This document shows positions 53,150 through 54,863 of a DNA stretch of 64,000 nucleotides, one piece after another. The first letter of the stretch is position 1. Every line of letters begins with the position of its first letter. The position numbers were made by a program, and so were the translations under genes. The stretch covers positions 1,873,971 to 1,937,970 of the forward strand of contig NZ_KK211190.1 in the NCBI RefSeq assembly GCF_000620865.1, read 5' to 3'. The notes under the pieces are model-generated. The model was not told the origin of the DNA. It ran no database searches and saw nothing but the letters and a program-made list of their open reading frames with translations. This DNA is from Exiguobacterium sibiricum 7-3. Lineage in GTDB: Bacteria; Bacillota; Bacilli; Exiguobacteriales; Exiguobacteriaceae.

Positions 53150-53174
53150 GGCGGCCCCCCGGCCGTCTTTTTTT
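53150..53174 (+). terminator. Terminator of the recombinase-like gene
   Basis: GGCGGCC, CCCC, GGCCGTC (one G-T pair), then T7. It ends in the hfq stop codon on the other strand. Confidence 0.85.
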
Positions 53175-53424
53175 AACGTGTGATTTCTTCCGTTTCCGCC
53201 TCTTGTTCATACAACGTCACATTCCGTGCCGGTGCGAATGTCGAGATGGCATGCTTGTAAATCAATTGTTGTTTGCCTTCTGATTCCAAAATGACGGTGA
53301 AATTATCAAACGACTTGATCAATCCCCGTAACTGATACCCGCTGATTAAAAATACTGTTGTCGGAACTGAATCTTTACGCAATTGATTTAAGAAATAGTC
53401 TTGAATGTTGTACGTTGCCTTCAT
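53173..53424 (-). CDS. hfq: RNA chaperone Hfq
   Basis: 83 residues. Sm1 motif ([21 protein letters not shown]) and Sm2 ([10 protein letters not shown]) are complete. The short C-terminal tail is acidic ([10 protein letters not shown]), as in other Gram-positive Hfq. It follows miaA on the same strand by 45 bp, the conserved miaA-hfq order. Confidence 0.97.
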
Positions 53425-54518: not shown

Positions 54519-54611
54519 TTAGACACGGCGGATAAAGTCGTCATAGACCGCGCTAAATACACACCACCCACAAATGACTAAGCCTGTCAGCATAATTCCC
54601 CAATCAGCCAT
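54519..54611 (-). CDS. Single-helix membrane peptide (30 aa)
   Basis: A 31-codon frame: ATG 54611 behind a strong AGAGGAGG, stop TAA at 54519. The peptide begins MADWGIMLTGLVICGWCVFS and ends in AVYDDFIRRV: one transmembrane helix with two Cys and a charged C terminus. The ribosome binding site, the intact frame and a terminator 12 bp beyond the stop make a complete small gene unit. Function unknown; it could be a small regulatory membrane peptide. Confidence 0.72.
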   Translation of the reverse strand: MADWGIMLTGLVICGWCVFSAVYDDFIRRV

Positions 54612-54684
54612 GTTTGGCACCTCCTCTGTCGTCTTTACATACCTTTTGACAAATCCAGGCGTTCGTAAACCCTTTCAAGCAGGT

Positions 54685-54713
54685 TTGACACCAATTACTG
54701 GAATCGCTATGAT
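54685..54713 (+). promoter_or_regulatory. Strong promoter of a probable small RNA
   Basis: TTGACA (54685-54690), exactly 17 bp, TATGAT (54708-54713). Transcription should begin near 54720. No ribosome binding site or credible frame follows. Confidence 0.8.
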
Positions 54714-54719
54714 AAAAGT

Positions 54720-54850
54720 ACGATTGTTGCGTAGCGCAGAAGCTGACCTGCATCGGCTTCTTTTAAGAGGGATTCCCCTCTTGATTCCACGCAGATGCCC
54801 GACATCTGCAAAAAGTCCCTTTTCCATTACGGAGAAGGGACTTTTTTTTC
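54720..54850 (+). ncRNA. Probable structured small RNA, ~130 nt, four hairpins
   Basis: Downstream of a consensus promoter come four successive hairpins. (1) 54738-54761, AGAAGCTGA with TCGGCTTCT. (2) 54765-54782, AAGAGGG with CCCTCTT. (3) 54791-54809, GCAGATG with CATCTGC. (4) The terminator GTCCCTTTTCC/GGAGAAGGGAC with T8. Loops expose CCTGCA, ATTC and CCCGA. There is no ribosome binding site after the promoter. It lies in the gap between the small peptide gene and the ABC-2 exporter, 1.2 kb from hfq. I cannot match it to a known RNA family. Confidence 0.72.
54810..54849. terminator. Terminator of the small RNA, also serving the ABC-2 exporter operon
   Basis: GTCCCTTTTCC (54815-54825) pairs with GGAGAAGGGAC (54831-54841); T8 on the plus side, A5 on the other, so it works in both directions. 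Confidence 0.92.
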
Positions 54851-54863
54851 GTTTAGACTGAAA

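Follow-up and report, generated by a model that had tools for sequence, protein, structure and literature searches.

RoxS/RsaE, FsrA and SR1 are trans-acting base-pairing small RNAs (sRNAs) of Firmicutes. Two other arrangements are relevant here: sRNA/leader pairs, in which one RNA region occurs both as the 5' leader of an mRNA and as a free RNA, and divergent type I toxin-antitoxin pairs such as IstR/TisB. The locus described below lies in a 64,000-nucleotide stretch of Exiguobacterium sibiricum 7-3 (the whole stretch analysed is called the window), a member of a genus used for studies of cold and salt adaptation. Like RoxS/RsaE, FsrA and SR1, it has its own promoter, a predicted RNA of about 130 nt with stem-loops and conserved unpaired stretches, and an intrinsic terminator; unlike them, it has no Rfam gathering match, no known target and no relative recognised outside the genus. 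Its likeness to sRNA/leader pairs lies in nine species, where a gene follows the RNA in the same orientation without an intervening terminator, but here the stand-alone form appears ancestral on a secY tree and a free RNA in those nine species would be putative. With IstR/TisB it shares the divergent arrangement of a structured RNA and a small hydrophobic ORF, but the complementarity is not above that of shuffles and the sister genus keeps the ORF without the RNA. Very probably this is a genus-wide small RNA gene without an Rfam name, whose kind (sRNA) is known and which has a side branch as an mRNA leader. Among titles and opening abstracts of the open-licence literature, no experimentally studied Exiguobacterium sRNA was found; of two papers on the genus, one gives sRNAs predicted by software (PMC10837837) and the other filtered out reads of noncoding RNAs (PMC4247613).

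The promoter consists of TTGACA (54685-54690) and TATGAT (54708-54713) with a 17-nt spacer; it matches the consensus at 11 of 12 positions and scores best among the 6 promoter-like sites within 4 kb. Promoter-like sites are themselves no more numerous than expected by chance (shuffle mean 4.4, sd 2.0), and neither are terminator-like sites in this range (5 vs 4.3, sd 2.5 in shuffles). The RNA has a predicted folding energy of -63 kcal/mol, compared with -31.5 in dinucleotide shuffles (z -8.85), and its first 88 nt from the 5' end, folded alone, give z -3.44. The earlier note had described this promoter, followed by about 130 nt with four hairpins of which the last is a terminator, and both descriptions hold, at a length of about 129 nt. 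The inverted repeat of the terminator matches itself on the minus strand, and its mirror also faces the convergent ABC-permease gene. The features are collected in Table 1.

Table 1. Features of the locus and its surroundings, in positions of the window.
Feature	Position	Strand	Basis or remark
hfq	53173-53424	-	Pfam and NCBIfam Hfq; end 1.26 kb from RNA locus
30-codon divergent ORF MADWGIMLTGLVICGWCVFSAVYDDFIRRV, outside the RNA	54519..54611	-	beside RNA in 19/19
Dyad GTAAACC-N10-GGTTTGAC overlapping the -35 box; possible operator	54665..54689	+	species comparison
Promoter TTGACA-17-TATGAT, with constant spacer words ACCA and TGGAATC	54685..54713	+	11/12 consensus; pattern in 19/19 genus genomes
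Small RNA, about 129 nt	~54720..~54848	+	both ends predicted; start placed from the -10 box
Unpaired conserved 5' strand ACGAUUGUUGCGUAGCGC, candidate seed	54720..54737	+	13/18 positions invariant, 19 species
Hairpin 1 (H1), 9 bp, loop CCUGCA	54738..54761	+	4/9 pairs doubly changed; 100% of cells paired
Hairpin 2 (H2), 9 bp	54763..54784	+	3/6 inner pairs doubly changed; 97.2% of cells paired
GATTCCA, last five bases unpaired past H2	54783..54789	+	18/19 species
Hairpin 3 (H3), 7 bp, sequence-variable	54791..54809	+	fold and alignment
Intrinsic terminator, 16 bp (54810-54846) then T run	54810..54848	+	terminator scan

Two side observations concern the same stretch. The word TGGAATC in the promoter spacer (54697-54703, 19 of 19 species) is the reverse complement of GATTCCA, which may be chance, and an ORF is also called at 54574-54861.

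How widely is the locus kept? Plain DNA similarity finds it in all 18 other genomes of the genus (E 3e-16 or better) and in none of 18 genomes of the sister genus; in one further genome of the class the similarity covers the terminator stretch only. A promoter pattern derived from the alignment occurs exactly once per genome in all 19 genus genomes (reversed control 0), and its exact matches among named-collection stretches are ten, every one from Exiguobacterium, with E. sibiricum (strain 255-15 included), E. antarcticum, E. undae, E. indicum and E. flavidum among them. As to a mobile origin, there were zero plasmid matches, and the promoter pattern had no exact match in IMG/VR. The earlier note had suggested a covariance search in other genomes of the genus, and a covariance model of the core does recover all 19 loci (E 5e-27 to 1e-15), the same loci on which it was trained. 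In 19 sister-genus genomes its best match reached only E 0.005, and the weak matches inspected there are not homologues. Nine weak matches were inspected as possible relatives, and the promoter is present in none: in the sister genus, six are T-run hairpins lying past reading frames; elsewhere, one at a second site within the genus (G013, E 3e-4) and one in G029 are each a hairpin just past a frame, and one in the same class (G190, E 0.009) is an unrelated fold. No relative outside the genus was recognised, a search of 299 genomes of the class with stricter filters included. Across the window Rfam 15 gave 0 matches at gathering score; the best match below threshold, PyrR, was set aside at 23.8 bits where 54 are needed (E 0.54). 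Separately, in a sister-genus locus (L096 of G029, at about position 1500 from the reverse strand) the hairpin GCAGCCGACCTGTATCGGCTGC with a T run stands behind a thioredoxin-like frame; its loop and stem are like H1 of the RNA, which we take as chance.

Within the genus, the best-kept parts are the promoter, the 5' strand, the H1 loop and GAUUCCA, while H3 and the terminator turn over. Identity to this genome in the other groups is 67-100% for the promoter segments and 78-95% for the 5' strand, whereas the neighbouring intergenic DNA reaches 43-55% outside clade A; conservation of H2, H3 and the terminator is lower than that of the promoter and the 5' strand. The segment CCUGCAUC of H1 is invariant in all 19 species. 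Do the stems change in a compensated manner? The test of H1 and H2 used 12 distinct sequences and a structure drawn from that very alignment, so that the paired percentage is biased upward: 98.9% of cells are paired, and 7 of 15 pairs have changed on both sides. The covariation score is 0.349 against 0.203 in shuffles and was reached by 0 of 500 of them, and sliding one side lowers the paired cells to 38-61%. As for extra pair types, shuffles often have as many (185/500). Beyond H1 and H2 the covariation is weaker. Among the 7 species of clade A, a single pair has changed on both sides in each of H2, H3 and the terminator; none of 500 shuffles was as good in covariation score, and 130 of 500 matched the count of doubly changed pairs. 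In clade B (9 species) the equivalent of H3 has two doubly changed pairs (28/500 shuffles). A possible short hairpin in the 5' strand is broken in 2 of the 12 distinct sequences with zero double changes, so covariation does not speak for it. The earlier note had made its case depend on compensatory stem changes among relatives, and these are found in H1 and H2. Chance can be excluded because the locus is conserved in 18 of 18 other genus genomes and H1 and H2 covary; its product is very probably a small regulatory RNA.

The dyad over the -35 box has the arms AAACC/GGTTT in 17 of 19 species. One of the others (L021) has AAACG/CGTTT, changed on both sides and thus compensated, and the other (L020) has AAACC/TGTTT with one pair broken. 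This suggests a candidate regulator site. A search of its own genome for a regulon with at most 3 mismatches gave 119 sites against 101 in the control, the sole exact match being the locus itself, and inside the window there are 2 sites where 2.0 are expected.

How might such an RNA act? The sequence has the marks of an sRNA gene: an independent promoter of a strong vegetative type, a terminator of its own in ten of 19 species, this genome included, and a predicted product that is noncoding, structured and conserved. We consider it rather probable that the locus is the gene of a trans-acting base-pairing sRNA specific to Exiguobacterium, recast as an mRNA leader in one clade. The locus would yield a transcript of about 129 nt, a regulator may act through the dyad at the -35 box, and the RNA would pair with targets via the 5' strand, the CCUGCA(UC) loop of H1, or both, with H3 and the terminator serving stability and termination. 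In nine species, the same RNA would also be the structured leader of the mRNA of a P-loop gene, because that gene stands behind the RNA and the terminator is missing. Pairing in trans via the 5' strand and the H1 loop appears the most likely mode because both are constant while the stems and the 3' part change, and because a gene that could be controlled in cis is lacking in ten of the 19 species. The T-rich terminator and the lack of a co-directional gene in these ten, including the outermost branch, likewise point to action in trans.

If the RNA pairs in trans, its targets may be sought by complementarity. We searched the 19 genomes with the two most conserved segments, the 5' strand and the H1 loop, and obtained no credible target for such pairing, which the earlier note had suggested as possible for the exposed loops. 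With at most 3 mismatches, and with its own locus and secY excluded, the 5' strand had 48 matches against 60 for the reversed pattern. Its best match is a site in secY (codons ~115-121 of the frame), where 18 of 19 pairs with the 5' strand are possible in its own genome, G-U pairs counted; the site is identical in 19 of 19 genomes and lies in a stretch unusually poor in synonymous changes in the genus. This candidate target was set aside as improbable on several grounds. By our arithmetic, chance alone would give about 0.2 matches of that quality in each genome; in 11 of 19 species a U to G change in the sRNA costs another pair and is uncompensated; synonymous conservation across the two genera also peaks there (8-11 of 14-19 codons), and the sister genus has no recognised RNA; and the site is changed in 10 of 11 sister genomes inspected, with the same core in one. 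As an observation on secY itself, codons ~75-140 (e.g. L163) show synonymous changes in 1-5 of 15-20 codons per 20-codon window among the 19 genus genomes, compared with mostly 7-15 elsewhere, and this stretch is partly common to the sister genus. The H1 loop with at most 1 mismatch had 101 non-self matches, an excess over the 42 of the reversed control. Twenty of the 101 sites were inspected, and all 20 overlap long reading frames (19 sense, 1 antisense) with 0 at an apparent start codon; the excess is tentatively taken for codon usage.

The outcome of these searches also agrees with another explanation, that H1 with its CCUGCA loop and the 5' strand titrate an RNA-binding protein or enzyme. 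In all 19 species the loop and its 3' flank are invariant while the H1 stem covaries. However, the RNA matches no known protein-binding RNA family, and its four hairpins carry no repeated motif, unlike CsrA sponges. We regard such a protein-binding RNA as unlikely, though it is the foremost of the alternatives.

There is a further question of concern, whether the stand-alone RNA or the leader came first. In ten of the 19 species the RNA ends in a final hairpin and T-rich run (the run being interrupted in L007 and L009), no co-directional gene follows directly, and a convergent gene faces the RNA. On the secY tree E. flavidum branches outermost in the genus, and it has this terminated form. The other nine species (L010 to L017 and L019) lack the T-run terminator, and the RNA leads into a co-directional P-loop kinase-like gene; they form one clade on the secY tree (0.994). 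The best model for this gene is PRK06217 (E 1.5e-33, 115.7 bits, below the cut-off of 203), and its Pfam match to SKI is just at the cut-off. From the -10 box to its start codon there are 192-193 nt in all nine species, with no second promoter of at least 9/12 and no T run longer than 4 in any of them. For the leader, folding predicts five hairpins and an 8-bp helix that closes it by using the conserved 5' strand of the sRNA; this helix is a prediction only, because 7 of its 8 pairs never vary. The claim of the earlier note that the locus is a complete stand-alone transcription unit thus stands for the ten species, this genome among them, and fails for the nine in which the terminator is missing and the P-loop gene follows.

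On the secY tree the stand-alone form would be ancestral, and the direction would then be from sRNA to leader. The simplest history suggested by the tree is that an ancestral sRNA turned into a leader upon the arrival of the P-loop gene. We tentatively extend this to a more specific scenario, in which a genus-wide stand-alone sRNA was captured as the 5' leader of the newly arrived gene in one clade. The promoter, the 5' strand, H1 and H2 would have been retained, and the terminator replaced by a leader-closing helix that folds the candidate seed, so that the RNA may work in trans in the ten species without the P-loop gene, and in the other nine in cis or in both ways.

Could the locus be a cis-acting leader or attenuator for the gene behind it throughout, the terminated form here being a switched-off or decayed version? 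A co-directional gene with no terminator between is present in nine of the 19 species and absent in the other ten, this genome among them. In the nine, the near-constant leader length, the lack of a terminator or second promoter before the P-loop gene, and the predicted closing helix on the conserved 5' strand would fit this explanation. But the ten species without the P-loop gene, among them this genome and the outermost branch, keep the core conserved all the same, and the invariance of nearly all closing-helix pairs counts against it as well. We therefore give a mainly cis-acting role only a small chance.

The gene order around the RNA is the same in 19 of 19 species: miaA (-), the small ORF (-), the RNA (+) and an ABC-transporter permease (-), with the P-loop gene between the RNA and the permease in the nine. 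Between hfq and the RNA are miaA and the 30-codon ORF. The earlier note had pointed to the nearness of hfq; the distance is right at 1.26 kb, but nearness is no evidence and serves as context only. In PMC4410918, the function of Hfq in Gram-positive bacteria is called elusive and somewhat controversial. The MADWGIMLTGLVICGWCVFSAVYDDFIRRV ORF encodes a one-helix hydrophobic protein behind a GGAGG site, has no match in Pfam or NCBIfam, and is present in 38 of 38 genomes of the family, the sister genus keeping it in 19 of 19 genomes (E 4e-4 or better). Its small size, hydrophobicity, ribosome-binding site and divergent position beside the RNA in all 19 species would suit a type I toxin silenced by the RNA as antitoxin. 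Duplex energies with the ORF region were, however, no better than those of shuffles in all 7 species tried of the 19 (20 shuffles per species, with only base composition kept), and in the sister genus the RNA is absent beside the ORF at 11 of 11 loci inspected; an antitoxin is therefore very improbable. Equally improbable is a coding or dual-function RNA with the frame MIKVRLLRSAEADLHR... translated: the frame is open across the conserved part with similar first 16-17 codons in 18 of 19 species, but its ATG sits within the -10 hexamer, its length ranges from 17 to 81 codons by species, and the variable columns number 6, 6 and 7 over the three codon positions (17 columns each) with no coding pattern seen, in line with the view of the earlier note that no protein is made.

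For Exiguobacterium, this RNA is a covariation-supported candidate, present in all 19 species examined and with a strongly conserved promoter, so that its expression, regulation and targets are directly testable. The clade with the P-loop gene provides a built-in comparison for the role of the RNA. If the capture scenario is true, nature would here have carried out the experiment of turning an sRNA into an mRNA leader.
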